This document shows, piece after piece, positions 22,228 to 43,467 of a stretch of 64,000 bases of DNA (positions are counted from its first letter, which is position 1; each line of letters begins with the position of its first letter). Made by a program: the position numbers and the translations under genes. The notes beneath the pieces are model-generated. The model searched no databases. It saw nothing but the letters and a program-made list of their open reading frames with translations, and was not told the origin of the DNA. The DNA is from Maridesulfovibrio sp. (lineage in GTDB: Bacteria > Desulfobacterota > Desulfovibrionia > Desulfovibrionales > Desulfovibrionaceae), in contig NZ_OY763930.1 of NCBI RefSeq assembly GCF_963667685.1, forward strand, positions 1,967,501 to 2,031,500, in the 5' to 3' direction.

Positions 22228-23151
<924 letters not shown>

Positions 23152-25349: not shown

Positions 25350-26513
25350 TTACCAATCGTTAAGCTTGCCCATGTCTGAGGTGGGAAGCGAGGGACCGAA
25401 ATTATATTTACCTGGTTTTTCGTGACGGGAAAGTTTATCAATCACCAGATTACGCAGCTCTTTTTCAAGGGCTGCGTTTTCCATTTTGGAGTCGGGAACA
25501 ATGAATGCTTTCAGCCGTTCCCCTTCGTCCGGGCGCATGAGTCTGACCGAACATTCCCTCACTGCGGGATGTGCTTTAAGAACTTCTTCCACCCGTGCCG
25601 GGTAGACATTGATGCCCCCAACCTGCACAGCTTTATCTGAACGTTTAATCGGCCTGAAATTAATTGTTCCCTGCCATTCCAGATTATCCTGTAGTGTGTA
25701 CAATTGCTTGGAGCCGTCTGCTGAGGTCCGTTCAATGGCTGAAAATCCGGCCTGTTGCCAGTGGCCCAACAGTGTGTACATGTCCTCCGGTTTATGACGG
25801 TAGCCGATTCCTCCGGTTTCTGATGAACCGTAAACCTCGGTCATGCGGGTAAGCCCCAGTGTGCAGAGATTTTTAATTGTTTCAGGCGGGCACGGTCCGG
25901 TGGATGTAACCCCGTATACATTTTCGGGGAAACAGCAACGCAGCTTTTCCAGCTTTTTCCAGAGCAGTGGAAAGGCAATTATAAGATCACCGCTGCGCAT
26001 CCTTTGGACTTGTTTGGGACCGGGCATTGGCGGCCAGAATTCAACCGGGATTCTTAAAGCCTTGGGTAGCAGGACGGAAAACAGGAAACCGTAAATATGA
26101 TGACGGGGAACATAGCTTATAATCTGTTTGCGGTTCGCGAAAAGCTTTGCAAGTGAGCATATTTCCTGTTCAAGGTCGCGATACTTTGATCTTGCGGCAA
26201 CTGGTTTTCCAGTACTACCGGAAGTAAAGAAAGTCAGGTGTTGCGGTCTTCCGCCTGTCTCCGCGAAGATAAGCGCAGCCAGCTCGGTTAGGCTCCTGCC
26301 CGCTGGCAGGGGGGATTCTAGGTCGAATTGTACTGCGATTCGTTGGAGAAGTTCATTCTGATTTTGGAAAATTTTATCATCGGGAATGAAGCTGCCGGGC
26401 AGTGATTGATCCTTGCAGAATTCAAGTTTCTGGCTGTAATCCATTTCCGCCAGCACAGCTGAGGATATTATCTCCTCAATCTCCGAAGTGGTGAGAGTCA
26501 GCAGAGCAGACAT
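25350..26513 (-). CDS. AMP-dependent acyl/aryl-CoA or ACP ligase (ApeH-like)
   Basis: The 387-residue protein is a short member of the adenylate-forming enzymes: LTFFTSGSTGKPVAARSKY is the ATP-binding loop, YGSSETGGIG the second core motif, and GGINVYPARVEEVLKAH with a late Lys the C-terminal lid. It would activate a fatty or aromatic acid with ATP and load it on an ACP or CoA. In aryl polyene clusters the similar enzyme starts the chain on the ACP. It is the last gene of a 20-gene run on the minus strand. Its stop is two bases from that of the convergent MORN-like gene. The acid used is unknown. Confidence 0.85.
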   Translation of the reverse strand: MSALLTLTTSEIEEIISSAVLAEMDYSQKLEFCKDQSLPGSFIPDDKIFQNQNELLQRIAVQFDLESPLPAGRSLTELAALIFAETGGRPQHLTFFTSGSTGKPVAARSKYRDLEQEICSLAKLFANRKQIISYVPRHHIYGFLFSVLLPKALRIPVEFWPPMPGPKQVQRMRSGDLIIAFPLLWKKLEKLRCCFPENVYGVTSTGPCPPETIKNLCTLGLTRMTEVYGSSETGGIGYRHKPEDMYTLLGHWQQAGFSAIERTSADGSKQLYTLQDNLEWQGTINFRPIKRSDKAVQVGGINVYPARVEEVLKAHPAVRECSVRLMRPDEGERLKAFIVPDSKMENAALEKELRNLVIDKLSRHEKPGKYNFGPSLPTSDMGKLNDW

Positions 26514-26516
26514 AAT

Positions 26517-27407
26517 TTATTTCGCAGGGGTGATGGAGATCAGCCCGAAGTTTTTACCAACCGGTTCAATGCAGTTGCTCGGGCCAATATTTTTGAGCTT
26601 AATTGCTGCATGAGCCAGTTCTGCCCCGGCAGCACACGGCATGTCTTCCTGCCACGAGGCTGTGGCGGAGATTCCAAGTGCTGCCAATCCGGGAAGAGTA
26701 CGGGCCGGACTGAATACAGGGGCATGCGTCTTTTTTTCTTGCAGCTCCTGCGGGGTGAGTAATTCCAATTCAATTGTCCCGTATTTTGCGCCGTCTGATT
26801 CTTCCGCAGGGCCAAGCAGGAAGAAACAACATCCTTCACCTGTTTCGAGTTGTTTTCCTGAGAAATTCTTTGCCCGCAGCAAACGAAGTGTGTTGTCTTC
26901 TAACAGGGGTGTTTTTTCGTCGACAACTCCGAGGAGAACTTTATTGACCCGTCTCTCATTCAACCAGCATCCAGCGGTTTGCACTGCGGCCATTAGGGGA
27001 CCATGTAATTGGCAAATTGTTGTGCAGGGCTTGGGGTTGTCGAGGAAAACAGCCATGGTTGCAGCAGGGATATTATGCACAGAATGGGAGAAGGCCAGCG
27101 GTGAAGCGCATCCTGCTCCGTGGTCTATGATGGAATCCAGAAATTCGAAGGTGGTCTGCGACGGACCGTATCCGGTGCTGAGTACAATGCCCATATCCTC
27201 GGGCAGGGGTAGTGTTGTTTTCAGGTCTTTCTGTTCTGTCCCGGCTGCATCGTGCAGGGCGCGACATCCAGCCAGCATGGTCATGCGGGTGAAATGATCC
27301 ACTCTCCGTAGGCGGCGCGGCGCAAAATATGAATTAAGATCGGATGTATCAACACCGTTTCCGTTTTGAGAGAGGGCGGTTCCGACTCCATGCAGGGCTA
27401 ACCGCAT
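26517..27407 (-). CDS. Ketosynthase-like chain length factor (Gln in place of catalytic Cys)
   Basis: The 296-residue protein is a truncated ketosynthase-like protein of the type seen in aryl polyene clusters. The strand before the active site (PKPCTTICQLHGPLMAA) lines up with the usual NACSSG nucleophile elbow so that Q133 stands at the position of Cys, as in type II polyketide chain length factors. The second half lacks the His pair. It is coupled to the active ketosynthase upstream by TAATG, so the two probably form a heterodimer in which this partner sets chain length. It starts at ATG 27407 with GGGAG before it. Confidence 0.85.
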   Translation of the reverse strand: MRLALHGVGTALSQNGNGVDTSDLNSYFAPRRLRRVDHFTRMTMLAGCRALHDAAGTEQKDLKTTLPLPEDMGIVLSTGYGPSQTTFEFLDSIIDHGAGCASPLAFSHSVHNIPAATMAVFLDNPKPCTTICQLHGPLMAAVQTAGCWLNERRVNKVLLGVVDEKTPLLEDNTLRLLRAKNFSGKQLETGEGCCFFLLGPAEESDGAKYGTIELELLTPQELQEKKTHAPVFSPARTLPGLAALGISATASWQEDMPCAAGAELAHAAIKLKNIGPSNCIEPVGKNFGLISITPAK

Positions 27408-28609
27408 TACATAGCTCCCTTTTTGAAGACAAGGGCGGAGTTGTTTCCGCCGAAGGCCAGAGAATCGCTAAGCGCGTAATTGGCCTTGGTTCTGGTTCTG
27501 GTTCTGGTTCTGGATGTAATTGGCACAGTCCCCACTTCGGGATCGGCATTACAAAAGCCGTAAGTGGGCATCACTTCCCCTTTCTGCAGGGACATGACCG
27601 TCATGACCGCCTCAATAGCTCCGGCAGCACCAAGGGTGTGTCCGGTAAATCCCTTGATTCCGGTGAACGGGGTGGAAGGGAAGATTTCACTGATTACCTG
27701 TCCTTCGATGCGGTCATTGTTATCAGTTCCGGTTCCGTGCACATTGATGAATCCGATTTCCTGCGCGCTGATTCCACTGCGCTTAAGGGCTTCATTTATG
27801 GCCAGTTTCAGCCCTTTTCCTTCGGGGTGCGGTGCGGTCAGGTGGTGGGCGTCGCAGCATGTTCCGTAGCCCAGTACCTGGCCGATGGAGTCAAGCTTCA
27901 GATTCTGTATGACTGTTTCATCAGCCAGAATGAGAATTCCTGCGCCTTCACCCAAGTTGAGGCCCTGTCTGTCCTTATCAAAAGGTCGGCATCTTTCCGG
28001 GCTGGTTATCATCAGCCGCGAAAATCCGGTGTAGGAAATTCCGCTCAGAGCATCAGCTCCGCCAGCTATGACCAGATCACAGAGTCCCTGCCTGATCCAT
28101 GAGGCTGCAATGCCGATAGCGTCTGTGCCGGAAGAACAGGCGTTGGTTACGGTTTGCACCGGACCTGATAAATTGTATTTTTCAGCCACGGCAGCTGCAG
28201 GATTGCAATGCAGGTAGCTTTCGATGATTTCAAGGTCCGGTTGATCTTCCTCGCGCCATTGCTGGTAGAAAGATTTGAAGTTCAGGGATGCTCCGGTGGA
28301 TGAACCGATGCATGAACCGACCTTAACTCCCTGAAGTTTTTCAGGGGTGAGCGCGGCATGTGTCAATGCTTCTTCCACAGCGGGGAAAAGCAGCTTCATG
28401 GTATTGGTTAGCGGTGGATCTTGCTTTCCCTGATGCAGCCACTCTGTATTTACCGCAAAAACAGGGCTCTGCATGGGCTGGTCGTATGAAAATCCGGGGA
28501 TAGACGTTGGTTGGACATCTCCAGTCAGCATGGTTTCAAAGCATGCGCAGGTGTTTTTACCAGCGGCGCAGATGCAGCCGCAGGCACAGATGCTGACGGG
28601 ACTATCCAT
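27407..28609 (-). CDS. Beta-ketoacyl-ACP synthase (FabF-like, active)
   Basis: The 400-residue protein has the full ketosynthase set: VTNACSSGTDAIG with C158, VHGTGTDNND with the first His, and KGFTGHTLGAAGAIEA with the second His. It extends acyl-ACP by two carbons from malonyl-ACP. It is the probable partner of the chain length factor just downstream (one-base overlap). Oddities are six Cys between residues 8 and 23, where family members have a plain strand, and an RTRTRTRT stretch near residue 373 coded by a hexanucleotide repeat at 27488-27511. It starts three bases after the ACP gene stop. Confidence 0.93.
   Translation of the reverse strand: MDSPVSICACGCICAAGKNTCACFETMLTGDVQPTSIPGFSYDQPMQSPVFAVNTEWLHQGKQDPPLTNTMKLLFPAVEEALTHAALTPEKLQGVKVGSCIGSSTGASLNFKSFYQQWREEDQPDLEIIESYLHCNPAAAVAEKYNLSGPVQTVTNACSSGTDAIGIAASWIRQGLCDLVIAGGADALSGISYTGFSRLMITSPERCRPFDKDRQGLNLGEGAGILILADETVIQNLKLDSIGQVLGYGTCCDAHHLTAPHPEGKGLKLAINEALKRSGISAQEIGFINVHGTGTDNNDRIEGQVISEIFPSTPFTGIKGFTGHTLGAAGAIEAVMTVMSLQKGEVMPTYGFCNADPEVGTVPITSRTRTRTRTKANYALSDSLAFGGNNSALVFKKGAM
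27488..27511. repeat. Hexanucleotide repeat GGTTCT x4 inside a ketosynthase gene
   Basis: Four tandem GGTTCT units lie within the 3' part of the ketosynthase gene. On the coding strand they give alternating Arg-Thr in a loop near the C-terminus. Unit gain or loss keeps the frame. Confidence 0.8.
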
Positions 28610-28612
28610 GCT

Positions 28613-28858
28613 CTAATCCTGTTTTTCCTTAATGAAATTTACGAGAGAATTAACGGATTGGAAAGCTGCTTTGCCTTCTTCCATGTTCTTGATTTCAACA
28701 TTGAAATTTTTCTGAACCAGCACCACGATTTCAACCGCGTCAAGTGAATCAAGGCCGAGGCCTTCACCGAATAGGGGGGCGTCATCTTCAATTTCATCCA
28801 CAGTTACATCAATGAGGTTCAACTCTTCGATGAGCAGCTCTTTAAGTTTGGTATGCAT
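28613..28858 (-). CDS. Acyl carrier protein
   Basis: The 81-residue protein carries the phosphopantetheine site GLDSLDAVEIVV with the attachment Ser, and the normal four-helix acidic ACP pattern (MHTKLKELLIEELNLIDVTV at the start). It would carry the growing chain of this cluster. A second ACP is coded at 38560, so the cluster has two dedicated carriers, as in aryl polyene systems. It is followed three bases later by the ketosynthase gene. Confidence 0.95.
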   Translation of the reverse strand: MHTKLKELLIEELNLIDVTVDEIEDDAPLFGEGLGLDSLDAVEIVVLVQKNFNVEIKNMEEGKAAFQSVNSLVNFIKEKQD

Positions 28859-28878
28859 TTGGCCTCGTTATAAATTTT

Positions 28879-29811
28879 TTATATCCACATGTTATAAAAA
28901 TTGTAGAATTGGTACGGGGTTTCCTGACAATACCTTTCCAATTCGTCCGAAAATTTCTGCGCAAAGGGGGTAAATGCCGCTGATCCGCGTATTTCTCCTT
29001 TGTCGGCATCGGCGGGTATGTGGAGCACCCGCGCAATTTTAAAATTACCTTCTCCGGCCTTCCGGCGTTCGGAAAAGACAATGGCTATCGGAGTCCTAGT
29101 TGCTGCCGCGACCTTAAATGGGGTGGACGGGATTTCTATTTTCCCACCCAGAAAGTCCACCTGCACATTATGCCTGCTCTCAGTCATGGTCCGGTCTCCG
29201 TTTATACAGAGCACAGAATTTTCGCGCAGAGCGGTTAGCATTTCAAGGGTTCCGCCCAGCGGTGCAGCCGGGTTGATAACCGTGATTTCTTCTTTTCCGT
29301 CCTTGTTACCGCCGGGCTTTCTCCATTTGAAGGAACGCTTGTCCACGTCCTTTTGGTCCATGAGCATGACCACTGCTTTGGGGGCATCCAGAAAATCGAG
29401 GTAGGAGATTCCCATCTGCCAGCAGCCCACATGTCCGGTAAGCAGGATCAGTCGGTTATGCTCGGCGTAAAGCTCTTGCAGTCTTTGAATATCTTCTTTC
29501 AGTCCGGCAGCTTTGAAGTCGCCAAGTATGCGCAGCACAGCCCGGTCGACAAGCATTTTTCCGAAATTCCAATAGAGCAGAAATGTATGGCCCTTCATGC
29601 TCAAACCGCTTTGCGGACCGAATCTGCGGCGGATGTATTCGGCAGGACGTCTACTGACTCCTGGGAGCAGCGTATAGAAACCGACAACAAAAAAGAGCAG
29701 GAAGTATGCACTGTGCCTGCCCAGCAGCCGAATTATCCCATAGAAAATATTGTGGTAAAATTCCGGGGCCAGACTTTTGCTGGACCATTTCCTCTTGCGC
29801 GTCATTTGCAT
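28879..29811 (-). CDS. Lipid A/LpxL-type lysophospholipid acyltransferase (ApeD-like)
   Basis: The 310-residue protein resembles the HtrB/LpxL acyltransferases. A membrane segment lies near residues 30-50 (HSAYFLLFFVVGFYTLLPGV). The H-x4-E motif of the family appears as LTGHVGCWQMG, with Gln in place of the acid; later NGDRTMTESRHNVQVDFLGG and PTPFKVA-like segments fit. It would move an acyl chain from ACP to a lipid or sugar at the inner membrane. It lies 20 bases before the ACP gene and 9 after the GT2 gene. The changed acid could affect activity or could be normal for this subgroup. Confidence 0.82.
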   Translation of the reverse strand: MQMTRKRKWSSKSLAPEFYHNIFYGIIRLLGRHSAYFLLFFVVGFYTLLPGVSRRPAEYIRRRFGPQSGLSMKGHTFLLYWNFGKMLVDRAVLRILGDFKAAGLKEDIQRLQELYAEHNRLILLTGHVGCWQMGISYLDFLDAPKAVVMLMDQKDVDKRSFKWRKPGGNKDGKEEITVINPAAPLGGTLEMLTALRENSVLCINGDRTMTESRHNVQVDFLGGKIEIPSTPFKVAAATRTPIAIVFSERRKAGEGNFKIARVLHIPADADKGEIRGSAAFTPFAQKFSDELERYCQETPYQFYNFYNMWI

Positions 29812-29820
29812 ATCCCCGGA

Positions 29821-30975
29821 CTACTGCGGTTTCATATCTAAAAACCGCTTGATGGTAAACGCCATGACGTAAATCACAATGCCTATAATTATGGCAAATA
29901 ACGGTCCAAGCACCAGTGAACCAAGCACCCATTCATAAAAGCGGTCTACTGCTTCATAGCCAAGTGTTTGCAATGATATTTCGGTCAGGAATTTGTCGTA
30001 ACGCAGGTAATGTCCGGCTTCGATGCACAGGGCAGGAACCAGTGGCGGGATGCATAACTGGCTGACGGCCAGTCCGGTAATCTTGCTCAGCCTAAAAAAG
30101 CTGCAAAAGATGATAATGGCAATGGAGTGCATGGCAATAAGCGGCAACGTGCCAAGCAGCATGCCCACAGCTCCGGCAATGGCCAGTCGGGATGGGGTTT
30201 CGTCTTTTGCAAGCAGGATGCGCAATGACCGCATAGGGTGGATAGGTGTGATCCTGCCTTCCGCATCCTTATCGTACTGGCGGTGCGGCAGAGGGAGAAA
30301 AGCGCGCATGGTCAGTCTGGTGTTGAGCAGAGAGATACGCAGGTTGTCCTTGAGGGCATTAAAATGCGATACCCGCTCTTCCGGTTCTGGGTAGAAAACT
30401 TTGATGGGCAGATCCTTCAGTTCATATCCGGCCCATGCGGCTTTGACCAGAATCTCAACCTCAAAGGCGTAACGAGGCTCGGAAGTCTTGACCACTGTGA
30501 AAATTTCCAGCGGATAGGCCCGAAACCCGCTCTGCACATCACTTAATTTGATTCCGGTCTGAACCCGCAGCCAGAAATTGGAAAAGCTGCGCCCGAATTT
30601 TGAAGAGCCGGGGATATTCTGCCCCGTGAAATCTCTGCTTCCCACGAATATCGCTTCCGGGCTTTGGCTGATCGCTTCGATGAAATTCGGTATCTCTTCA
30701 GGAAAATGCTGGCCGTCGGCATCAATGGTGATGATGTGTGTTTTGCCCATTTTGCGGGCTTTTTCCACAGCTGTGAGGATGGCTTGCCCCTTACCGAGGT
30801 TCTCATCATGGCAGATCAAATTCAGTTCAAGATCGCTGATTTCCGCAACTCCGCTATCAGTGCTGCCGTCATCCACAACTAGAACGTCTCCATATTTTAT
30901 GGCCTGTTTGGCAACATCGCGCAAACTGGCTCCATGGTTGAAAACCGGAATAACTATGAGTGGATTAACCGGCAT
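29821..30975 (-). CDS. Glycosyltransferase family 2 with C-terminal DUF2062 domain
   Basis: Residues 1-230 are a GT-A domain (PLIVIPVFNHGASLRDV, DDGSTDSG, then IDADGQHFPEEI with the metal-binding DAD). The rest holds several membrane segments and the DUF2062 domain (MLLGTLPLIAMHSIAIIIFC, ending VLGSLVLGPLFAIIIGIV). It may move a sugar onto a lipid carrier or onto the product of this cluster. I use ATG 30975, which overlaps the upstream gene stop by eleven bases; an ATG at 31023 is also possible and would add 16 polar residues. Similar fusions are found in aryl polyene clusters (inference from memory of the family). Confidence 0.85.
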   Translation of the reverse strand: MPVNPLIVIPVFNHGASLRDVAKQAIKYGDVLVVDDGSTDSGVAEISDLELNLICHDENLGKGQAILTAVEKARKMGKTHIITIDADGQHFPEEIPNFIEAISQSPEAIFVGSRDFTGQNIPGSSKFGRSFSNFWLRVQTGIKLSDVQSGFRAYPLEIFTVVKTSEPRYAFEVEILVKAAWAGYELKDLPIKVFYPEPEERVSHFNALKDNLRISLLNTRLTMRAFLPLPHRQYDKDAEGRITPIHPMRSLRILLAKDETPSRLAIAGAVGMLLGTLPLIAMHSIAIIIFCSFFRLSKITGLAVSQLCIPPLVPALCIEAGHYLRYDKFLTEISLQTLGYEAVDRFYEWVLGSLVLGPLFAIIIGIVIYVMAFTIKRFLDMKPQ

Positions 30976-32356
30976 AAGTTGAATCCGTGGTTGTTTTGTC
31001 TGCTGAGTCTGCGGGCTGGTCATCGAATTTTATCAACTGGTCCCAGAGAATGCCCCTGAAACCGAATTTTTTCATAATATTAATACGTTGCTGTCCCTCG
31101 TCCGGTGGGAAGAGGCGGTCTCTACGTTTTTTGAATCCTTGGATCAAGGCTGCATTCATTTCCTCTCTATCAAGTGCAGGGGAGAAATAATAAAATGGTT
31201 CCAGCAGTGATTGATCGGGCGGGATTAGACCTTCTTTGACTGCTCTTGTAAAGAGCGGTGTTCCGGCATGTAGTCTGATCCCGGAAAAAGGGAATACCAC
31301 ACAATTTTGCAGGGAATTTATGTTCTTTATCCCTTCATGAACAGTATCCATGGTTTCGCCTGGACCTCCGAAAATTACAAAATGGGCACAGGGTATGCGT
31401 TGCGCTACGCATTTTTTATTGAATTCCATGACTGTGTTAAAATCAAAACTCTTGTGCAGCTCTCTGAGGGTGGTATCTGAGGTGGCGTCAGTGCCTACTT
31501 CCATGGCCTGCAGTCCTGAACGTTTGAGCATGGCCAGCTCGTCATGTTCAATTGGGCCGGGCTGGAAAAAACCGCACCAGCTGATTTTAACTTCCCGGCG
31601 GATGATTTCTTCGGCCAGTTGCAGGTAATGCCCGCCCCGGTCGTTGAGTACTGAATCGGTGAAAAAAATATTATCAGCTCCGAATGACACAAGCATCTCT
31701 ATTTCATCCACCACTTCATGCACCGGGCGGACCCGCATTCTATGTCCTTCCAGAAAGGGATAGGTGCAGTATGCGCAACGGTGTTCACAGCCGCGTTTGG
31801 TCTGTACATTGATCACGCCGCTTTGGTTGAGGTAATAGCGGAGCAGTTCAGGCTCCCAGCGTGGAACCGGGATTTCATTACCGGGAATACCTTCTTCTTT
31901 ACCGTAAATCTGTTGAACCGGAATTCCTTGTTCGAGCCGTGCGATCAAGTGGGTCATTTTGCGCTCACCTTCACCTACAATGCCATAATCCGCGCCTATG
32001 TATGTGAGAATTTCCTCAGGCAGCAGTGAGAATCCGGCTCCTCCGGCAATGACCGGAATTCCGGTCTCTTTGAGCACATCGACAACCAGCTTTGCCTTAT
32101 GGATGTATTTATTGGTGTGTGAAGTGAAGGAATCTACATTATCCACATTGCGGATGGATATTCCCGCGTAATCAGGGGCGGCTTCGGCCAATGCGCTGCG
32201 CAGATGTTCGAGTGAATTTCCAGTGGCCAACATGTCGTATTGTATAACTTTATGTCCTGCGTTTTCAAGGCTCCCGGCGATAACCGACATGCCTATCGGA
32301 TAGACCGGATAAGGTTCTACATTTGTGTTGGTTGAAATGAGAAAGATTGAGGCCAT
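30965..32356 (-). CDS. B12-binding domain radical SAM protein
   Basis: The 463-residue protein has an N-terminal cobalamin-binding domain (YPVYPIGMSVIAGSLENAGH, VIAGGAGFSLLPEE, GADYGIVGEGE) and a radical SAM domain with C190-x3-C194-x2-C197 (CEHRCAYCTYP). Class B enzymes of this kind do methylations and ring or bond-forming reactions at unreactive carbons. In this lipid cluster it probably changes the acyl chain, for instance by methylation, cyclisation or desaturation. It lies between a thioesterase gene and the GT2 gene (14 bases from the former). The reaction cannot be told from the sequence. Confidence 0.9.
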   Translation of the reverse strand: MASIFLISTNTNVEPYPVYPIGMSVIAGSLENAGHKVIQYDMLATGNSLEHLRSALAEAAPDYAGISIRNVDNVDSFTSHTNKYIHKAKLVVDVLKETGIPVIAGGAGFSLLPEEILTYIGADYGIVGEGERKMTHLIARLEQGIPVQQIYGKEEGIPGNEIPVPRWEPELLRYYLNQSGVINVQTKRGCEHRCAYCTYPFLEGHRMRVRPVHEVVDEIEMLVSFGADNIFFTDSVLNDRGGHYLQLAEEIIRREVKISWCGFFQPGPIEHDELAMLKRSGLQAMEVGTDATSDTTLRELHKSFDFNTVMEFNKKCVAQRIPCAHFVIFGGPGETMDTVHEGIKNINSLQNCVVFPFSGIRLHAGTPLFTRAVKEGLIPPDQSLLEPFYYFSPALDREEMNAALIQGFKKRRDRLFPPDEGQQRINIMKKFGFRGILWDQLIKFDDQPADSADKTTTDSTYAG

Positions 32357-32370
32357 GGGGTCCTGTAGTT

Positions 32371-32841
32371 TTATCTAACGGGAGTAAGTGTTCCGTTCTT
32401 CCATTTTTCGCAAAGTCCGGCAAAGAAATCAGGCTGGAACATCAGCAGTTCGTCGTTCTGCACAAATAGTTGGACCGTACATCCGGTGGTGGCTTTTTCA
32501 CCGGAAGCATCGCGGATGATGAATTCGTAATTCATGCGTGCGGCTTCAGTCCAGTGCAGCAGTGTTTCAATGCTGAATGTTTCGCCGAAGCGCAACGGCT
32601 TAATGTAATCGACCTGCATTTTTTTGATCGGCGCGGCTACCTGATAGCGGAACAGGTCCATGTAGCCGATACCGTACAAATCGCCCAGCGCAGTGCGTCC
32701 GTCCTCAAAATAGCTGGGGTAGCGGCCGTGCCAGACAATATTCATGGGGTCCACCTCTTCAAAGCGGACTGTGCGCTGGACAACATGGCGCAGTGGGGCA
32801 GGAGCACCTTTTATATGTGGAAAATATGATTTGCGGGCCAT
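32371..32841 (-). CDS. Hot-dog fold acyl thioesterase (ApeK-like)
   Basis: The 156-residue protein is a 4-hydroxybenzoyl-CoA/YbgC-type thioesterase: RFEEVDPMNIVWHGRYPSYF has the conserved Asp and the WHGRY helix start, followed by LRFGETFSIETLLHWTEAAR. It would release a chain from ACP or CoA, or proofread. I start at ATG 32841 with AAGGA upstream; it overlaps the dehydratase stop (TAATG). The 23 extra residues of the longer frame overlap that gene and have no ribosome site. Confidence 0.88.
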   Translation of the reverse strand: MARKSYFPHIKGAPAPLRHVVQRTVRFEEVDPMNIVWHGRYPSYFEDGRTALGDLYGIGYMDLFRYQVAAPIKKMQVDYIKPLRFGETFSIETLLHWTEAARMNYEFIIRDASGEKATTGCTVQLFVQNDELLMFQPDFFAGLCEKWKNGTLTPVR

Positions 32842-33227
32842 TACATTCCTTTCGTTGTGAAAATGAGCTGATAGGTTGCGGCGGTTTCCCCGGCTACGCT
32901 GAGGGAGCATATTGCAATATGATTCACTGCCTTGGTCTTTAGGGAAACATTCAGCTCCAGTTTTTCCATTGGCTTTACAGGACGCAGAAATTTGCAGCGG
33001 GTCACTGATTGCAGCACAGGATTTTCCGCCGGGTATTCAATAGCCAGCGCTTCCAGTGCACTGATCTGGCCGAGCATGGTCTGGATCACTCCGGGCAGGA
33101 TGGGGTTGCCGGGAAAGTGGCCATCAAAACCGGGGAAAGATTCCTTGAAAATATAGGAGCGGCTGTAACCTGTCGCTGTTTTTTCAAGAGAACCGCCGGA
33201 GTTCGAAATATGGGTGCTGAGATCCAT
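32841..33227 (-). CDS. FabZ-like 3-hydroxyacyl-ACP dehydratase subunit (ApeI-like)
   Basis: The 128-residue hot-dog protein has the FabZ active-site strand GHFPGNPILPGVIQTMLGQ with its His. At the place of the FabZ Glu (or FabA Asp) stands Met. The partner coded at 36763 has a Glu at the equal place (YIELVAQT), so the two may form a heterodimer that completes one dehydratase site, as reported for ApeI/ApeP. It would make the double bonds of the product. It lies two bases after the lipoprotein gene stop. Confidence 0.87.
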   Translation of the reverse strand: MDLSTHISNSGGSLEKTATGYSRSYIFKESFPGFDGHFPGNPILPGVIQTMLGQISALEALAIEYPAENPVLQSVTRCKFLRPVKPMEKLELNVSLKTKAVNHIAICSLSVAGETAATYQLIFTTKGM

Positions 33228-33229
33228 GG

Positions 33230-36140: not shown

Positions 36141-36142
36141 TT

Positions 36143-36775
36143 TTACTCTTTCAGGAAGGTGTTCTGTGGAAGTTTCTGATTCAGCTTTACGTTTGAAAAT
36201 ATGATTTTTGTATAATCTCCACCCGGTTCGTGGAGTTCTATGCTCTTGAGATGGGTAGCCTGCGGAGCAAAATATATACGGATCAGGTTCATAAACTCTC
36301 TGGTTTTACTTGATTTGGGGGTAAGTTCCATTACCGCCGGGGAGTAATCCGTGATTTTGAGGGTGTAGATTTTTTCAATCCACGGGATGTTCATTGTTGT
36401 CCAAGCCAGAATTTGTTCAGAAATTATAGCCATTTCCGGAGAAGTTTCTGTGTTGAATTCAGTTGTTTGGTCTGTCGCTCCATCCCATTTTAATCCGCTT
36501 TCGCCTTTAATCAGGAAGCCGGAAATAAAAGGAGATTTGTATTCCCAGCGCAGATTATTCGGGCGGGCAAAGTAGAATTTACCAGTTGATTCGACGGCTT
36601 CGGCAAAGAGGGCGATGTGGCTTTGCTGGGTAAATTCGCTACTTATGGAAGATATAGACTTTGAGCGTTCTTGCAGATCCTTCAGGAAATCAGTCTGCTT
36701 ATCCGCAAGAACATTTCCACAGGATATTCCCAGCAACAGTAATGTGATAAGTAGCGCTTTTCTTATAGCTGCCAT
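36143..36775 (-). CDS. LolA-like outer membrane lipoprotein carrier (ApeL-like)
   Basis: The 210-residue protein has a signal peptide (MAAIRKALLITLLLLGISCG then NVLA) and the LolA fold: SISSISSEFTQQSHIALFAE, GKFYFARPNNLRWEYKSPF, and a late strand set. LolA carries lipids or lipoproteins across the periplasm. Here it is likely dedicated to the cluster product, since it lies between the exporter and the dehydratase. It overlaps the upstream gene by 13 bases. Confidence 0.9.
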   Translation of the reverse strand: MAAIRKALLITLLLLGISCGNVLADKQTDFLKDLQERSKSISSISSEFTQQSHIALFAEAVESTGKFYFARPNNLRWEYKSPFISGFLIKGESGLKWDGATDQTTEFNTETSPEMAIISEQILAWTTMNIPWIEKIYTLKITDYSPAVMELTPKSSKTREFMNLIRIYFAPQATHLKSIELHEPGGDYTKIIFSNVKLNQKLPQNTFLKE

Positions 36776-37260
36776 GTAGCTGTGCTTTCTCCTGTTTTTT
36801 GCAGACCTATGAGTTCGGCCATGCTTTCGTCCTGCGGAACAAAAAGTTTGATTCTGCCTTCAGCCATAATTATATCTTCCCTGCTGACTTTTCCCTCCAC
36901 AACGGCGAATCCGTCAAAATTGCCTACAGTCCGGACCTTGATGAGCAATTCGGAGCTGCTGAAATTAATGTTCGAAAATGACTGGTTTATCTGGAATTTC
37001 TGCACACCGACGAGGTATCCATCTGGAATGGGCTGTCCTGTCTTTCGCAGGTGGTAGCCGCAGACGGCAGCATAGGTCTGAGCCACCAGTTCAATGTAGA
37101 ACGGAGGCAGCATATTGCCGTCATGACCAAGACTGATTGATTGTGATGAAAGGTCGGCAAGCGCTGTTCCGCCTTCTTCGTCTGCGCTGAGCACACTGTC
37201 GAGGAGTAACATTTGCCCCCGGTGCGGCAGTAATTTTCGGGCTTCCATGGGAAGGGGCAT
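36763..37260 (-). CDS. Hot-dog dehydratase partner subunit (ApeP-like)
   Basis: The 165-residue protein is related to 3-hydroxyacyl-ACP dehydratases: KLLPHRGQMLLLDSVLSADE is the family opening and PPFYIELVAQTYAAVCGYHL the central helix with a Glu at the FabZ acid place. It lacks the full HFPGxP motif. It may pair with the FabZ-like protein at 32841. I start at ATG 37260, with GGAG before it; the longer frame adds 22 residues without a ribosome site. It overlaps the LolA gene, so it is in the same transcript. Confidence 0.85.
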   Translation of the reverse strand: MPLPMEARKLLPHRGQMLLLDSVLSADEEGGTALADLSSQSISLGHDGNMLPPFYIELVAQTYAAVCGYHLRKTGQPIPDGYLVGVQKFQINQSFSNINFSSSELLIKVRTVGNFDGFAVVEGKVSREDIIMAEGRIKLFVPQDESMAELIGLQKTGESTATWQL

Positions 37261-37326
37261 AACAAGTCTCCGGCTGGAACAAAAGACCGGAGCCGGATAG
37301 GGTTCCCAGCTCCGGTTATAATTCAA

Positions 37327-37731
37327 TTATTTTACGTCCAGATAGCTGAGTTCACGGTTGATGGCATTGGAAAGGTTTTGAATCCATGCGTTGTAGTTGC
37401 TGTGGATCATATTGCCTTTGTGTTTCAGGTTGGTGCTGTCTTTGTAATTGATGCTGTAGTTTTCCGGTGTGTAGGTGATGTCTACAACGGCCTGGTGTGA
37501 GCGGATATTCAGAGTTCCGACGAGGTGTCCGGGCGCAGCGTCGGTAATCTGCCAACCGAGGCTGTATCCTGCTTTGATGATACTGTTTTTTACTTTTTCC
37601 ATGGAGCGTTGCTGACCGCTGCTGGAAACAATCGGTGCCAGTTCAATATTCTGGATGGGAGCGGTTCTGCAACCGCCGAGAAAAAGTGCGCAGGCAACCA
37701 GAACAAAAGCAACAATTCTAAGTTTTTTCAT
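37327..37731 (-). CDS. Small lipoprotein of unknown function
   Basis: The 134-residue protein has a lipoprotein signal (MKKLRIVAFVLVACALF then LGGC). The mature part has about 110 residues with a mixed alpha/beta pattern (MEKVKNSIIKAGYSLGWQIT, then strands HLVGTLNIRSHQAVVDITY). I know no named family. It lies inside the lipid cluster between the ApeP-like and PlsC-like genes, 45 bases from the latter. It may help export or anchoring. Confidence 0.78.
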   Translation of the reverse strand: MKKLRIVAFVLVACALFLGGCRTAPIQNIELAPIVSSSGQQRSMEKVKNSIIKAGYSLGWQITDAAPGHLVGTLNIRSHQAVVDITYTPENYSINYKDSTNLKHKGNMIHSNYNAWIQNLSNAINRELSYLDVK

Positions 37732-37776
37732 CTGTAACTTCCTTGTCTTGATAGTTAAAAATAGTGAAAGTAGCTG

Positions 37777-38529
37777 TTACACTTGCTGATTCAATTCCTG
37801 AATACAGGCAACCATAGTTGTTTTGACTGAACGGCGCAATTCAATATGTGGATTTTGAGTGCTCAGAAATTGTTCCGGGTAGATAGGAGCAAGGATGCGT
37901 CCCCGGACTTTTGCAGGACGGATGAGCATATGCCCGCGTGGCAACATGCGGAAAGATCCGCTGATGCATAATGGTACAACAGGTAGTCCGGTCTGAACGG
38001 AAAGACGGAATGGCCCGGAGTGAAACCGGTTCAGTCTGCCGTCTTTACTGCGGGTTCCTTCCGGGAAAAACATTAATGTAGCCTGTTGTTCCACAGCTGT
38101 TTGCGCCTGTTTTAAGATCGTATCCAGATCGTCTGTCTCCACATTGATGTATCCCGCAAGTTTCATGTAAAATCCGTAAAATGGAATTTTGAACGGCCAG
38201 TCACGAACCGCCATACAGATATTGCGTTGCGGTTGGAATGAAACAAGGTAGGGATCGAAAAATGATTCATGGTTGGCGACGATGATGCACGGCGAAGGCA
38301 GTTCCTGTTGCTCGGGCCATTTAATGTCAACGAATAGACTCATCAGCTTTGAACTGGTCCAGCCGTAGTACCAGATCATTTTTCGCAGGGTTTCCGGCTT
38401 TTTCCATAGTAGTATGCGGGTAAAAAACAGGTAGCAAAGCGGTGAAATGATGACCCCGGTCAGGGTCCAGAGGATTATACTGAGGTATATCCCGGCGTTG
38501 ATCCAGATTAGTTTCAGGTAATGAGCCAT
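37777..38529 (-). CDS. 1-acyl-glycerol-3-phosphate acyltransferase-like protein (PlsC family)
   Basis: The 250-residue protein has a membrane segment near the start and the PlsC motifs VANHESFFDPYL (H-x4-D) and FFPEGTRSKDGRLNRF. These enzymes move an acyl chain to a lysolipid. It is the second acyltransferase of the cluster and may place the special acyl chain in a phospholipid or on a sugar lipid. It is 30 bases after the second ACP gene. Confidence 0.9.
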   Translation of the reverse strand: MAHYLKLIWINAGIYLSIILWTLTGVIISPLCYLFFTRILLWKKPETLRKMIWYYGWTSSKLMSLFVDIKWPEQQELPSPCIIVANHESFFDPYLVSFQPQRNICMAVRDWPFKIPFYGFYMKLAGYINVETDDLDTILKQAQTAVEQQATLMFFPEGTRSKDGRLNRFHSGPFRLSVQTGLPVVPLCISGSFRMLPRGHMLIRPAKVRGRILAPIYPEQFLSTQNPHIELRRSVKTTMVACIQELNQQV

Positions 38530-38559
38530 GGGATAGGGGTAGACAGCAAAGCCGTTTGA

Positions 38560-38814
38560 TTAAACGGCTTCGTCTTTTTTGTTCAAAATAAATTTATGCA
38601 GGTCTCCAAGGGTACGTATGGACTTGAACGCTTCGTCTTTCTTAATCTTGATGTCGAACTCCTGTTCCAGCACAATAACCATATCCACGGCATCAAGGCT
38701 GTCGAGATCAAGGTCGTCTTTGAATGCCGCTTCCGGCACCAGCTCATCAAGCTCCAGTTCAAATTCTTCTGCTAAAGCGGAGTTGATTCTTTTAATTATC
38801 TCTTCGTCTGTCAT
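38560..38814 (-). CDS. Acyl carrier protein (second copy)
   Basis: The 84-residue acidic protein has DLDSLDAVDMVI with the phosphopantetheine Ser and the helix pattern of ACP. It begins one base into the stop of the ketosynthase upstream (TAATG), so the two are tightly coupled. With the ACP at 28613 the cluster has two carriers. It differs enough from that copy to suggest different partners. Confidence 0.95.
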   Translation of the reverse strand: MTDEEIIKRINSALAEEFELELDELVPEAAFKDDLDLDSLDAVDMVIVLEQEFDIKIKKDEAFKSIRTLGDLHKFILNKKDEAV

Positions 38815-40040
38815 TATGCTCTCCTCAAAACAAGCGCTGTATTTATACCGCCGAGGGCGAAGTTATTTTTCAGCGCATATGTAATTGGTCTTTCCTGCAA
38901 ATGCAAGACGTTGTTTATTGCAGAGCATTCTTGAGCGGGAACGGTCAGGTTTGCAGTAGGAATTATTGTACTTTCCTGCATCATACATATAGTTGCGATG
39001 GTCTCGATAGCTCCGCTGGCAGCCATGGTATGACCAAGATGCCCTTTCAGGCTGCTGACCGGGGCAGAAGAGCCGAGCAGACCTGCAACGGCCTGTGCTT
39101 CGGAGGCGTCGCCTTGCAGAGTTCCGGTGGCGTGGGCGTTTACATAATCTATTTCAGATGCGGAAATTCCGGCATCGTTCAGCGCGGCATTCATGCAGCG
39201 TCTGATAGCTTCAGAACTGGGCGATGCCATATTGCTGCTGTCGCAAAGGGAGGAGAAACCTGCTATCTCACCTAGAATCTTTGCCCCCCGCGCTTCGGCC
39301 TGTTCGTAGTTTTCCAGCACCAGCATACCTGCACCTTCAGCACAGACTATGCCGTCCCGTGCGGCGTCAAAAGGTCTGGAAGCTTTAGTAGGGTCTTCGG
39401 CACCGGAGTTGGAAGCTGCTTCTATGATATCGAAAATTCCCACGGTCAGGGGATGCAGTTCGTCAGTACCACCGCAGAGCATAATGTCCTGTTTACCTGT
39501 GGCAATGGCCTCCGCGGCAAGCCCGATGTTCTGGCATCCGGTGGAGCAGGCAGCCGAGGCCGCAATTACCCGCCCGGTGATACCGAAAAACTGGGACAGG
39601 TTGGCGGCAGCACTGTGGTTCATGATTTTGAAAAATTCGGTACTGCGGATAGCTTCAAGGGAATTTTCCGGCAGGTAAAGCTTGAAGAATTGTTCGAGAG
39701 CCTGCGAGCTTCCTGTCGTCGAGCCGACGGAAAGCCCGGTCCGTCCCCCGCTTATTGTCTGTTCATCAAGCCCGGCCTGCGCCACCGCTTCAAGTGCAGC
39801 AATCGCTGCAAAAATTGAAAAGTTGGACATGGTCCTGCGGAATTTACGGGGGATTGCCTTCGCATTCACTTCCGTCACCCGTCCAGCAACCCGCGGACGC
39901 AATCCTTTAACCAGCTCCAGTTCATCCATGCGGCTGATGCCGGACCGACCAGAGACCAGTCCGGTCCAGAGTTCTTCAACTCCGCTGCCCAGTGGGGAAA
40001 CCGAACCCATTCCGGTTATGGCTACGCGTTGTATATGCAT
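38814..40040 (-). CDS. Beta-ketoacyl-ACP synthase (FabF-like)
   Basis: The 408-residue protein has ASAACSTGCQNIG with C165, NAHATGTLQGDA with the first His and LKGHLGHTMAASGAIE with the second, so it should be active. It is one of three active ketosynthases in the cluster. It overlaps the flavoenzyme gene by 19 bases and the ACP gene by one, so it may use that ACP. Role in starting or extending the chain is not clear from sequence. Confidence 0.93.
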   Translation of the reverse strand: MHIQRVAITGMGSVSPLGSGVEELWTGLVSGRSGISRMDELELVKGLRPRVAGRVTEVNAKAIPRKFRRTMSNFSIFAAIAALEAVAQAGLDEQTISGGRTGLSVGSTTGSSQALEQFFKLYLPENSLEAIRSTEFFKIMNHSAAANLSQFFGITGRVIAASAACSTGCQNIGLAAEAIATGKQDIMLCGGTDELHPLTVGIFDIIEAASNSGAEDPTKASRPFDAARDGIVCAEGAGMLVLENYEQAEARGAKILGEIAGFSSLCDSSNMASPSSEAIRRCMNAALNDAGISASEIDYVNAHATGTLQGDASEAQAVAGLLGSSAPVSSLKGHLGHTMAASGAIETIATICMMQESTIIPTANLTVPAQECSAINNVLHLQERPITYALKNNFALGGINTALVLRRA

Positions 40041-41518
40041 TGTAATTCCTTATGAATTTTTTCGTGTCCATAGATGAAACCACAGGTCAGGTATGCGGAA
40101 ACCACCGCGCCCATGACACCCGGAGCGATGATGGATTGTCCGGCCAGCAGCAGACCTTTGATCTTGGTTGCCGGTAACGGATTATATTGCGAAACAGTGT
40201 GCGCAGCCCCGTAAAGGCTTCCGTAAGGAGAGTGGCAGTAGTCGCGCAGGGTCAGCGGGGTTGCCGCATCGATAAATTCTACTTTATTGCGCAGTTCCGG
40301 GCATCGAGCAAAGACCTGTTTTTCAAATTCAGCCATGACTTCAGCTTTGAAGTCGAGGTACTCCTGCGGCCTGTTATTTAGCCCGGAGTCCTGCCATCTG
40401 CTGAATTTCTCGATGCTGCATGGCATTATGGCGGTAATGCTTTGTTCCCCTTTACGGCCAAGGGTTTGTCCGGCGGAGAGGAAAACAGCATTGTCGTCCA
40501 TTCCGGTTTTTCCTGAAAGAACTTGGCTGTAATCTGATTCAGGCCATAGGTAGATGCTGCGGCCCTGCAAGGATTTGACCGGTGCTTCGGCAATGCCGAA
40601 AAGAATCAGTGCGGAGACTGTTTCCTGCAATTCATTGATCCTGCGCTTGAAGACCGGGCGGAAAGCCCCGTCTTCTACACAGCGGATCATGGCTGCCGGG
40701 TGCGCGGACCAGATACATATTTGACCCCGCAATTCAGTTCCATCATCCAGCAGCAGGCTTTTGAAATTTTTGTTCTCGTCGTGCGTTATGCGGACCGCTT
40801 TTCTGGAGCAGTAGATATCAACACCGTGTTCTTTGAGCTGTTTCTGGTAAATATCAGCCAAGGCCTTACCGCCCCCTTCGATGGTATGCGAAGAGCGGAA
40901 ATATGAACCGGCTACAAGGGCATGGGTGGAAAGCATGGCTTCATGCGGCGGGGTTCCGTAAAGCAGGGAATGGCAGCTGAGCAGGTCCTTGATATTTTGA
41001 TCTGCGGTTATGGAATTCAGATAGTCGCTTAAGGATTCCGTCTCATCATGGGCCAGTGAATCCAGATTGAAATCCAGATTGAAATTCAGAAAGGATGAAG
41101 AATCGAAAATGGTTTGCAACCGTTGCAGGTATTTATCAATGGCCTGTTTTTCAGCAGGAAAGGCTTCGTGCAAACTATTGCGGACTCGTTCATAGCCGTA
41201 GGGCAGACAGATTTCCCTGCCCTGTTTTTCAAAGCGGAAACAATCGCAGCCATGGCGGTCAAAGGGGATTTTGCGCAGCTTTTCGGCAATGCCCAAATGT
41301 TTGAAATAAGTATCCAGCGGGTCGCCGTCACCCATCCCGCCAATGAGGTGGATTCCGGTTTCGAAATGCACTCCGTACTTGTTGAAGCCGCGTACTGTCG
41401 GTCCAAGCAGGGGAAATGCCTCAACTAGTGCGACCTTGAATCCCTGTTTTGCCAGCAGCAGAGCAGAGGTCATACCGGAGATTCCGGCTCCCACAATTAT
41501 CTGATTATAGGCAGGCAT
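40022..41518 (-). CDS. Phytoene desaturase-like FAD flavoenzyme
   Basis: The 498-residue protein begins with the dinucleotide site IIVGAGISGMTSALLLAKQG and has the CrtI-type second motif and the C-terminal LPATKIKGLLLAGQSIIAPG with GVMGAV. It is related to carotenoid desaturases, isomerases and FAD-dependent saturases. In this cluster it may desaturate or isomerise the polyene chain. A short internal duplication (NLDFNLD near residue 180) is seen. It overlaps both neighbours, a ketosynthase on each side. Confidence 0.88.
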   Translation of the reverse strand: MPAYNQIIVGAGISGMTSALLLAKQGFKVALVEAFPLLGPTVRGFNKYGVHFETGIHLIGGMGDGDPLDTYFKHLGIAEKLRKIPFDRHGCDCFRFEKQGREICLPYGYERVRNSLHEAFPAEKQAIDKYLQRLQTIFDSSSFLNFNLDFNLDSLAHDETESLSDYLNSITADQNIKDLLSCHSLLYGTPPHEAMLSTHALVAGSYFRSSHTIEGGGKALADIYQKQLKEHGVDIYCSRKAVRITHDENKNFKSLLLDDGTELRGQICIWSAHPAAMIRCVEDGAFRPVFKRRINELQETVSALILFGIAEAPVKSLQGRSIYLWPESDYSQVLSGKTGMDDNAVFLSAGQTLGRKGEQSITAIMPCSIEKFSRWQDSGLNNRPQEYLDFKAEVMAEFEKQVFARCPELRNKVEFIDAATPLTLRDYCHSPYGSLYGAAHTVSQYNPLPATKIKGLLLAGQSIIAPGVMGAVVSAYLTCGFIYGHEKIHKELQCIYNA

Positions 41519-42732
41519 TAGAATTCAAGGACGAGGCAGGAGTTGGTTCCGCCGAATCCGGCAGAGTTGAGCAGGGCTTTTTGCGGCGGAAGGATGTCAG
41601 TTTCAGTGAGGATATTCAGACCCGCACTGTCTTCATCCCCGGCATTGAAATTGATATTAGCTGCTGTGAATCCGTGGCGGTTCATGAGTGTTGTGTATAC
41701 CACCTGACTGGCTCCGGACATCCACAGTTCGTGTCCGGTCATGGATTTGGTGGATGAAATGCGTGGACGGTTCTCACCGAAAAGTTTTTTGATATTTGCG
41801 GCTTCAGCTCCGTCCCCGGCCGGGGTGGAGGTGGCGTGGGCGCAGATATAATCGATATCCGCCGGGATCAATCCGGCTTGTTTCAGTGCTTTTGCACCTG
41901 CCCTCGCCAGACCGTCTCTGCCGGGAACTGAGATATGCTCGCCGTCTGAAGAAAATCCGTATCCGCTGATCGTTCCGAGAATTTCGGCCCCGCGTGCTTT
42001 GGCCAGTTCATAGCGTTCAAGCATGATAGCAGCGGCCCCGCCGCTTGGGATCAGACCGTCGCGATCCTTATCAAAAGGACGGCTGGCCTGTGCCGGATTA
42101 TCGGTGTGGTTGGAGAAAGCCCCCAGTCCGTCAAAGCTGCACATGGACTGCCAGTTCAGCTCCTGTGCCCCGCCGCAGATAATTCTGTCCTGCTGTCCTG
42201 AAGCAATTAGATTCATTGCCTGACCTACCGCATGTCCACCGCTTGAACAGGCTGAGCTGATGGTCCAAGCAGCGCCTTTTGTTTTGAAAAGCGTGTTCAG
42301 GTTCATGGTAATGCAGGAAGTCATGGAGCGGAAAACAGCGCCGCTTCCAATTAGTGAAGTCTCGCCCCGCTCTTTGAGAATTTCAACCTGATCAAGAGCG
42401 GCAATGCAGCTGGAATCACAACCGAAAATCAATCCGCTGTCATCATTTTGCAGGTCTTCTTCGCAAAGCCCTGATTGGTCAAGGGCCTGTTTAGCCGCAG
42501 CGTATGCTTGAACCGCAAAGTCGGGCATGGTTTTGCGTTGCTTGCGGCCCAGCCATTCCTTTGGATTGAAGTCTTTGATGACGCCGGTAAGCGGGCTTTC
42601 GAAGCCGAGCTTGAGCCTTTCTGCATCAACATCAATTCCGGAATATCCGTTTTTCAAGGCATCCGTTATGCTCCGATGGTCAGACCCCAGAACAGAGACT
42701 GCTCCTATTCCGGTAATTGCCACTTTGTACAA
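41518..42732 (-). CDS. Beta-ketoacyl-ACP synthase (FabF-like)
   Basis: The 404-residue protein has TISSACSSGGHAVG with C162, CAHATSTPAGD with the first His and SSTKSMTGHELWMSGASQ with the second. It starts at TTG 42732 with GGGGAG well placed. It follows fabG by 12 bases. In aryl polyene clusters three active ketosynthases with separate steps are known; this one may have the same place. C-terminal residues SAGFGGTNSCLVLEF fit the family. Confidence 0.92.
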   Translation of the reverse strand: MYKVAITGIGAVSVLGSDHRSITDALKNGYSGIDVDAERLKLGFESPLTGVIKDFNPKEWLGRKQRKTMPDFAVQAYAAAKQALDQSGLCEEDLQNDDSGLIFGCDSSCIAALDQVEILKERGETSLIGSGAVFRSMTSCITMNLNTLFKTKGAAWTISSACSSGGHAVGQAMNLIASGQQDRIICGGAQELNWQSMCSFDGLGAFSNHTDNPAQASRPFDKDRDGLIPSGGAAAIMLERYELAKARGAEILGTISGYGFSSDGEHISVPGRDGLARAGAKALKQAGLIPADIDYICAHATSTPAGDGAEAANIKKLFGENRPRISSTKSMTGHELWMSGASQVVYTTLMNRHGFTAANINFNAGDEDSAGLNILTETDILPPQKALLNSAGFGGTNSCLVLEF

Positions 42733-42744
42733 GGAATACTCCCC

Positions 42745-43467
42745 TTAAGTATGGATGCCGCCGTTAACAGCGATAGTTTGTCCGGTGATGTAGGTGGCCT
42801 TGTCAGAACAGAGAAAGGAGACGACCCCGGCTACTTCTTGCGGTGTGCCTAAGCGTTTCAGCGGAATATGTTCTTTAATCTGGTCCAGAGGGAGTTCCGC
42901 AACCATGTCCGTTGCAATAAAACCGGGAGTGACTGCGTTGACCAGAATATTGCGTTTGGCGACTTCCATCGCAAGCGAGCGGGTGGCTCCAATGAGACCT
43001 GCTTTGGCCGCGGAATAATTTGTCTGTCCGGCAACTCCTGTTTCGCCAGAAGTTGAGGCTATATTAATGATACGTCCGGTTCTTTTACGCAGCATGCGCG
43101 AGACAACTGGTTTGGTTACATTGAAAAAACCGCTAAGATGGACTTGCAGAACCTTGTTCCAGTCATCTGAAGACATCATCATCATGATTGAATCCCGGGC
43201 AAATCCGGCATTATTGACCACAATGTAGGGCACTTCTTTCTCCAGCAGTGGGGAAAGGGTGTTTTCTACTGCGTCTTCGTCTGTGACATCGAATTTAAGC
43301 AGTGTGCACTGGCGTCCTTGTTCGCGGATAGCAGCGGCAGCTTTTTCGGCCCCGGTGTCATCACTGCGGTAGTTTAGCCATATATCGTAGCCGTCTTCGG
43401 CCAGTTGAATAGCAATGGCCGCGCCGATTCCTTTGCTTGCACCAGTAACTAGAGCTATTTGTGACAT
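42745..43467 (-). CDS. 3-oxoacyl-ACP reductase (FabG-like, ApeQ-like)
   Basis: The 240-residue short-chain reductase has the NADPH site VTGASKGIGAAIA, NNAG, Ser in IASTSGETG and the YSAAK active site, ending with a typical GQTIAVNGG. It would reduce the beta-keto group after each extension. It is the first gene of the 20-gene run. Only 25 bases upstream stands a strong terminator of the gene before, so the operon promoter must be tucked in or overlap that gene. Confidence 0.94.
   Translation of the reverse strand: MSQIALVTGASKGIGAAIAIQLAEDGYDIWLNYRSDDTGAEKAAAAIREQGRQCTLLKFDVTDEDAVENTLSPLLEKEVPYIVVNNAGFARDSIMMMMSSDDWNKVLQVHLSGFFNVTKPVVSRMLRKRTGRIINIASTSGETGVAGQTNYSAAKAGLIGATRSLAMEVAKRNILVNAVTPGFIATDMVAELPLDQIKEHIPLKRLGTPQEVAGVVSFLCSDKATYITGQTIAVNGGIHT

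Follow-up and report, generated by a model that had tools for sequence, protein, structure and literature searches.

The window analyzed here, a 64,000-nucleotide stretch of the Maridesulfovibrio sp. genome (contig NZ_OY763930.1), contains a run of 20 co-directional genes on the minus strand at positions 25350-43467. The operon appears likely to direct the synthesis and export of an outer-membrane lipid bearing a polyene chain, assembled by a highly reducing type II polyketide synthase (PKS) of the kind found in aryl polyene (APE) systems. This reading is based on gene content, homology, intact catalytic motifs, and co-inheritance. Embedded in the run are a CrtI-like flavin adenine dinucleotide (FAD) enzyme, g3, and a B12-binding radical S-adenosylmethionine (SAM) enzyme, g14, and the lipid product is probably methylated and desaturated or isomerized. 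What is new is this variant of an APE-type operon with both added enzymes; its link to ladderane candidate genes was partly anticipated by the name of TIGR04072, the family of g14, and in the excerpted text of Rattray 2009 (PMC2649909).

Gene content and likeness to aryl polyene clusters

Rereading of the open reading frames (ORFs) recovers all 20 genes in the interval, numbered g1 to g20 (Table 1), and the arrangement is no chance run, as the same order recurs in six of nine other loci of the genus. The 19 intergenic junctions measure -70 to +45 bp, with a largest gap of 45 bp, so that a single transcription unit is likely. The values -70 (g12/g13) and -59 (g14/g15) depend on longest-ORF starts; for g13, an alternative ATG overlaps the g12 stop codon as TAATG. 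A scan for promoters and terminators gave counts at the level of shuffled sequence (18 versus a mean of 18.6 and 18 versus a mean of 22.7).

A preliminary description of this DNA had listed a ketoreductase (KR), three ketosynthases (KSs), a chain length factor (CLF), two acyl carrier proteins (ACPs), a thioesterase (TE), a ligase, acyltransferases, a GT2-DUF2062 glycosyltransferase, LolA, an MMPL protein, and two lipoproteins, together with a split dehydratase (DH), two embedded redox enzymes, and no methyltransferase, and Pfam and NCBIfam searches combined with motif inspection agree with it throughout. The searches back every gene label except those of g7 and g11, which match no family and are taken as lipoproteins from their lipoprotein-like starts, and they find no methyltransferase domain among the 20 window proteins. 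In alignments, g2, g4, and g18 retain the Cys-His-His triad, g19 is without the Cys, and both ACPs (g5 and g17) retain DSL. The ApeI-type catalytic His (GHF...PLLPGV) lies in g12 and the ApeP-type catalytic Glu in g8, so that the two dehydratase halves are separate proteins, as in APE systems. Two phosphopantetheinyl transferase-type genes are present in the genome.

The suspected closeness to APE clusters, for which comparison with a known locus had been proposed as a check, is upheld protein by protein. Reciprocal BLAST was run between the 20 proteins of the run and the full Ape set of E. coli CFT073 (18 proteins, translated from locus L153). Of these 18, 13 (ApeQ, R, E, D, A, P, L, M, I, K, J, O, and H) gave reciprocal best matches, and 15 of the 20 window genes had an Ape partner at E<=1e-5. 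Among the reciprocal pairs are g4 with ApeR (E 2e-98) and g18 with ApeO (E 6e-57). The additional ketosynthase g2 matches ApeR at 3e-61, but ApeR prefers g4. ApeJ is matched by two window genes, g15 and g16, and g5 finds ApeF one way, the best window match of ApeF being the ACP g17 by a small margin (29.6 versus 28.1 bits). No BLAST match links g19 to E. coli ApeC; a PDB search with its family profile does reach the ApeC chain 7F28_A (E 2.4e-13), with FabF-type chains ahead at up to 5.8e-26. Likewise, g11 has no BLAST match to ApeN, and the first seven Foldseek matches of its model (predicted local distance difference test score [pLDDT] 83) are all titled LolB (best E 2.2e-5; template modeling [TM] score ~0.4-0.5).

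Structural and phylogenetic comparison of the ketosynthases points the same way. The PDB entries 7F27, 7F28, and 4EWG are described in the excerpted text of PMC8358021 as ApeR, ApeO-ApeC, and an ApeR, respectively, and the top two PDB matches of g4 are 4EWG and 7F27. In a tree built by a quick method from 44 of 45 rows given, one anammox row having been dropped for too few filled columns, g4 groups with ApeR (Shimodaira-Hasegawa-like approximate likelihood ratio test [SH-aLRT] support 99), g18 with ApeO (90, unstarred), and g2 with FabB (99).

The window run and apeA-R of E. coli CFT073 thus share a KS-CLF pair, an ApeR-type KS, a KR, a split DH, two ACPs, a ligase, a TE, two acyltransferases and a glycosyltransferase, and the membrane-lipid export module A/L/M/N, in which the LolA, MMPL, and lipoprotein genes noted earlier find their Ape counterparts. 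The window operon differs in being without ApeB and ApeG, in having ApeJ split into two genes, in its lack of a recognized starter supply, and in adding the FabB-type KS, the CrtI-like enzyme, and the B12 radical SAM enzyme; g3 and g14 have no BLAST match among the 18 CFT073 proteins. Two other systems were considered. Flexirubin systems supply the highest-scoring NCBIfam matches of the window KR and LolA, and membership was rejected with both proteins under the cut-offs (314.6 versus 340 for FlxB; 117.4 versus 125 for LolA2_flexi). Celluxanthene was set aside as a comparison because it is the product of an iterative type I PKS (excerpted text of PMC12144888).

Table 1. Genes of the operon and one adjoining small ORF, with the basis of each assignment
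Feature	Coordinates	Strand	Basis or remark
g1 KR, ApeQ-like (47% identity)	42745..43467	-	Pfam/NCBIfam, BLAST against Ape
g2 extra KS, FabB-type, Cys-His-His intact	41518..42732	-	matches ApeR, not ApeR's best match
g3 CrtI/CrtD-like FAD oxidoreductase	40022..41518	-	below NCBIfam carotenoid cut-offs; no APE counterpart
g4 KS, ApeR-like	38814..40040	-	BLAST, tree, PDB matches, residues
g5 ACP, ApeF-like	38560..38814	-	one-way best match; DSL
g6 PlsC-type lysophospholipid acyltransferase, ApeD-like	37777..38529	-	domain, BLAST
g7 lipoprotein, ApeA-like	37327..37731	-	BLAST E 5e-24
g8 DH half, catalytic Glu, ApeP-like	36763..37326	-	TTG start; in-frame ATG further in
g9 LolA-like periplasmic carrier, ApeL-like	36143..36775	-	domain, BLAST
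g10 MMPL/RND (resistance-nodulation-division)-type exporter, ApeM-like	33750..36140	-	domain, BLAST
g11 LolB-fold lipoprotein, ApeN position	33230..33763	-	predicted fold; no BLAST match to ApeN
g12 DH half, catalytic His, ApeI-like	32841..33227	-	domain, BLAST, motif
g13 4HBT thioesterase, ApeK-like	32371..32841	-	start set at TAATG overlap; longest ORF to 32910
g14 B12-binding radical SAM enzyme, TIGR04072	30965..32356	-	profile score; no APE counterpart
g15 GT2-DUF2062 glycosyltransferase	29821..31023	-	ApeJ's best match
g16 lipid A-type acyltransferase	28879..29811	-	ApeJ's second-best match
g17 ACP, ApeE-like	28613..28858	-	BLAST, DSL
g18 KS alpha, ApeO-like	27407..28609	-	BLAST, tree, PDB match
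g19 CLF without catalytic Cys, ApeC-like	26517..27407	-	motif, profile against PDB
g20 adenylate-forming acid ligase, ApeH-like (21% identity)	25350..26513	-	domain, BLAST
Small lipoprotein-like ORF, 57 amino acids, LGC	43523..43696	-	directly upstream of g1

The added redox enzymes and their inheritance

Both added enzymes belong to families of varied chemistry. The score of g14 against TIGR04072, titled 'rSAM_ladder_B12', is 687.3 bits, above the cut-off of 360, and the radical SAM motif CxxxCxxC is kept in 21/21 aligned sequences; at the place of a DxHxxG motif, no His was seen when the same alignment was read by eye. The closest PDB match of g14 by sequence is the tryptophan 2-C-methyltransferase TsrM (6WTE, E 2.8e-32), from which it differs in scoring 139 against the cut-off of 500 of the TsrM NCBIfam family; the substrate of TsrM is unrelated. 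Membership of g3 among the carotenoid desaturases was rejected on its scores (92.4 versus 549.7 for CrtD and 65.2 versus 238.1 for crtI_fam). The same genome has another, distantly related CrtI-like gene (23% identity) at G000:C2:1184570-1186000, with a counterpart in genome G001.

Within the genus, these enzymes are inherited together with the polyketide machinery. Close relatives of the radical SAM enzyme (E<=3e-213), the CrtI-like enzyme (E<=1e-188), and the CLF (E<=4e-83) co-occur in 10 of the 17 genus genomes, the same ten for each protein. In the remaining seven, no CLF match was found, and any matches to the radical SAM or FAD enzyme are distant. All 20 genes are present in identical order in the six loci mentioned above (KR partial in two). 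Of the other three, L131 and L133 have all but the KR, which falls outside the stretch, and L132 ends at a contig end.

The radical SAM gene is also widespread beyond the genus. TIGR04072 is found above cut-off in 84 of 395 genomes sampled from the phylum and at a minimum of 567 bits in 22 of the 395, the window's own included. At least 569 named relatives of g14 were confirmed; titles among the best 80 include Desulfobacterota-type names, Lentisphaerae, Nitrospirae, Omnitrophota, and Bacteroidetes, and the nearest among the matches listed is 'Desulfovibrio sp. UBA2564' (82%). Neighbors were counted, at score thresholds set by the authors, in those loci among the 80 whose upstream sequence reached 9 kb or more, 44 in all. 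Frequent neighbors are relatives of the acyltransferase g16 (37), the glycosyltransferase g15 (35), the ACP g17 (34), the KS g18 (33), the DH half g8 and the TE g13 (32 each), LolA (31), and MMPL and CLF (29 each). Rarer are the KR (10), the KS g2 (6), CrtI (5), the ligase g20 (3), and the lipoprotein g7 (1). One radical SAM gene per stretch, the window type, is seen in 10 of the 44, and two or more in 34. In many of the loci L053-L066 and L140-L148, moreover, the surroundings of the TIGR04072 gene include radical SAM genes in tandem (two or three) and a further KS/CLF-like pair. When whole genomes hosting 50 of the best 80 relatives were searched for CrtI, a relative was found at 190 bits or more in 42/50 and at 266 bits or more in 40/50. 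In 31 of the 50, the highest-scoring one stands no more than 30 kb away on the same strand (25 upstream, 6 downstream, by coordinates only, without a contig check), in keeping with a shared cluster.

Proposed pathway and competing explanations

We infer the order of steps, the starter, the reactions of g2, g3, and g14, and the product as follows. The ligase g20 would load a carboxylic-acid starter onto the ACP g17, and the KS-CLF pair g18/g19, with help from the ApeR-type KS g4, would add malonyl units from the ACP g5. The KR g1 and the split dehydratase g8 and g12 would then convert every added unit to a conjugated double bond, with the TE g13 serving in proofreading or release. The FabB-type KS g2 may perform an extra condensation or build a second chain, the flavoenzyme g3 may desaturate, isomerize, or reduce the conjugated chain, and g14 would most likely carry out C-methylation of an unactivated carbon. 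The acyltransferases g6 and g16 and the glycosyltransferase g15 would join the chain to a lipid anchor, and the MMPL protein g10, LolA g9, and the lipoproteins would carry the lipid to the outer membrane. Polyene assembly and export are the strongest of these steps, and the reactions of g2, g3, and g14 the weakest.

Several observations weigh against this account. B12 radical SAM enzymes also catalyze nonmethylating chemistry, for example BchE, and methylation by g14 is for this reason a majority guess. The CrtI superfamily covers many reactions, and the model of g3 is poor (pLDDT 68), its top Foldseek match being a gamma-carotene desaturase (TM score ~0.5) with amine oxidases close behind, so no reaction is inferred from the fold. 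Moreover, 19 of the 50 host genomes searched gave no nearby CrtI relative, and the 31 that did were placed by coordinates only. The ligase g20 shares only 21% identity with ApeH. Neither ApeB nor ApeG is matched among the 20 window genes; the two are not counted as part of the APE core because an apeB mutant still produces APE carboxylic acids (excerpted text of PMC8253772). In the open-licence PMC literature, surveyed mostly by title, no product was found for such a cluster. Finally, the lack of an aromatic ammonia-lyase, noted earlier for the run, extends across the genome, in which profile searches detected neither PF00221 (found in 5 of 14 control genomes) nor UbiC PF04345 (found in 1 of 14). 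As these searches turned up no recognized source of an aromatic starter, the "aryl" part of the comparison is unproven. A search for a starter source with PF21168 (FkbO/Hyg5 family) gave no match among the control genomes.

The best-surviving alternative is that the operon makes an ordinary aryl polyene lipid, with g3 and g14 as minor tailoring or dispensable enzymes and an aromatic acid supplied by an unrecognized enzyme or the medium. It is favored by the near-complete Ape set and by the pocket of g4. The aryl-stacking residues of ApeR are Tyr135 and Phe202, with Phe118 (excerpted text of PMC8358021); in g4 all three positions are Phe, position 135 being Val in FabB, FabF, and g2. Among the g4-type rows of relatives, this position is Phe in 17/21 and Tyr in 1/21. 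By alignment, the g4 residues fit an aromatic or planar starter and prove neither, and the Phe/Phe pair could equally line the pocket of a plain polyene. Against it, no UbiC or histidine/tyrosine ammonia-lyase was found in the genome, and the run has no ApeB. Furthermore, the radical SAM and CrtI-like genes occur together in 10/10 cluster-bearing genus genomes and often beyond, unlike dispensable genes. We regard an ordinary aryl polyene as unlikely.

A pathway to polyunsaturated hydrocarbons or polyunsaturated fatty acids (PUFAs), as suggested for the C31:8/C31:9 compounds of Desulfotalea psychrophila, is quite improbable. C31 polyunsaturated hydrocarbons do occur in that bacterium, which has related genes (excerpted text of PMC2649909). 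However, the KS-CLF pair, KR, and split DH, with no separate enoyl reductase recognized in the run, together with the dedicated module for lipid attachment and export, fit a conjugated outer-membrane lipid better.

The remaining alternative is a ladderane or ladderane-like pathway, in which CrtI-type desaturation would be followed by radical SAM cyclization of a polyunsaturated acyl-ACP, as proposed for Kuenenia. The preliminary description had pointed to a likeness with ladderane candidate genes, and part of this stands: g14 is above the cut-off of a family named for ladderanes. The combination of radical SAM, CrtI-like, extra KS, membrane-protein, glycosyltransferase, and ligase genes also recurs in the Kuenenia candidates and in deltaproteobacterial clusters; that Kuenenia, D. 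psychrophila, Geobacter, and Pelobacter share it was noted in silico in 2009 by Rattray (excerpted text of PMC2649909). The further claim of a kind of lipid not yet described consequently fails for the cluster and can hold for the product only. In the presumptive Kuenenia genome G589, loci L166 and L168 fit in gene order kuste3335-3349 and kuste3603-3608, respectively, of the Kuenenia gene lists (excerpted text of PMC4790861). L166 contains KS, KS-like, above-cut-off TIGR04072 radical SAM, KR, ACP, DH, MMPL, CrtI-like, and glycosyltransferase genes. It matches six Ape proteins (ApeE, J, M, O, R, and Q; two on the same ORF), and so is APE-like too. A Kuenenia-like locus, L171, matches ApeE, J, M, O, and R plus ApeD.

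The part of this likeness that did not stand is grouping with anammox proteins. The presumptive anammox set consists of 25 genomes hand-picked, among the matches listed, from the 76 HZS_alpha-positive of 392 planctomycete genomes by an HZS_alpha reading frame of ~715-844 amino acids, some genomes with similar frames and further, larger matches being omitted. Above-cut-off TIGR04072 is found in just five of the 25 and in none of G623, G718, and G749, whose assemblies each lie almost entirely in a single contig; matches of 305-339 bits occur in 13, four of the five included. To our knowledge, all anammox bacteria are held to make ladderanes. CrtI relatives in the 25 genomes reach at most 198 bits and are at 140 bits or more in 19, compared with the 266 bits or more seen in 40 of the 50 host genomes above. 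In quick trees, the anammox radical SAM rows lie beyond a branch of support 98, with Bacteroidetes and a few others, and the anammox CrtI rows form a clade of their own (support 100, with a long-branch warning). Neither the ApeO nor the ApeR group includes any anammox KS, the deep branches here being weak. The window operon also has one radical SAM gene, as opposed to two or more in 34 of the 44 named relatives counted. For D. psychrophila, with its related cluster, the excerpted text of PMC2649909 reports no ladderanes detected and proposes PUFA synthesis. Judged by these trees and by the distribution of TIGR04072, the window operon would be a relative of the ladderane set, membership in which is disfavored, and a ladderane product is highly improbable.

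Surroundings and wider meaning

To the left, the operon converges with a plus-strand gene ending at 25347, which adjoins homocitrate-synthase-like and nitrogenase genes. These belong to a nitrogen-fixation region (13650-24484) with nitrogenase component 1 type genes, NifH, a radical SAM/FeMo-co-domain protein, and the homocitrate-synthase-like gene. On the right are the 57-amino acid ORF of Table 1, a GGDEF protein, and a histidine kinase. This ORF is followed by a hairpin and T-run ~30 nt before g1, and a tblastn search matched it upstream of the KR in L137 and L138, weakly in L144, and not in L139; it is possibly a 21st member of the operon or part of an attenuator. Farther away, at 59186-62209, a gene with RmlD-like and methyltransferase domains adjoins another radical SAM gene, with no link to the operon seen.

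TIGR04072 genes are common, both in the sampled phylum and among named relatives in many other phyla. Within this range, the operon described here is compact, with its one radical SAM gene. Three more genus genomes that carry the cluster (G004, G015, and G016) consist of a single contig each, so that cultured members may exist from which the product of the class could be learned. It is a doubtful but testable idea that the operon represents a large class of modified-polyene membrane lipid systems, found mostly in anaerobe lineages and combining an APE-type PKS with TIGR04072 and CrtI-like enzymes, of which the Kuenenia ladderane-candidate locus would be a diverged relative. The ladderane candidate genes would then be recast as relatives of aryl polyene synthesis, and ladderane synthesis itself may stem from a polyene-lipid pathway.

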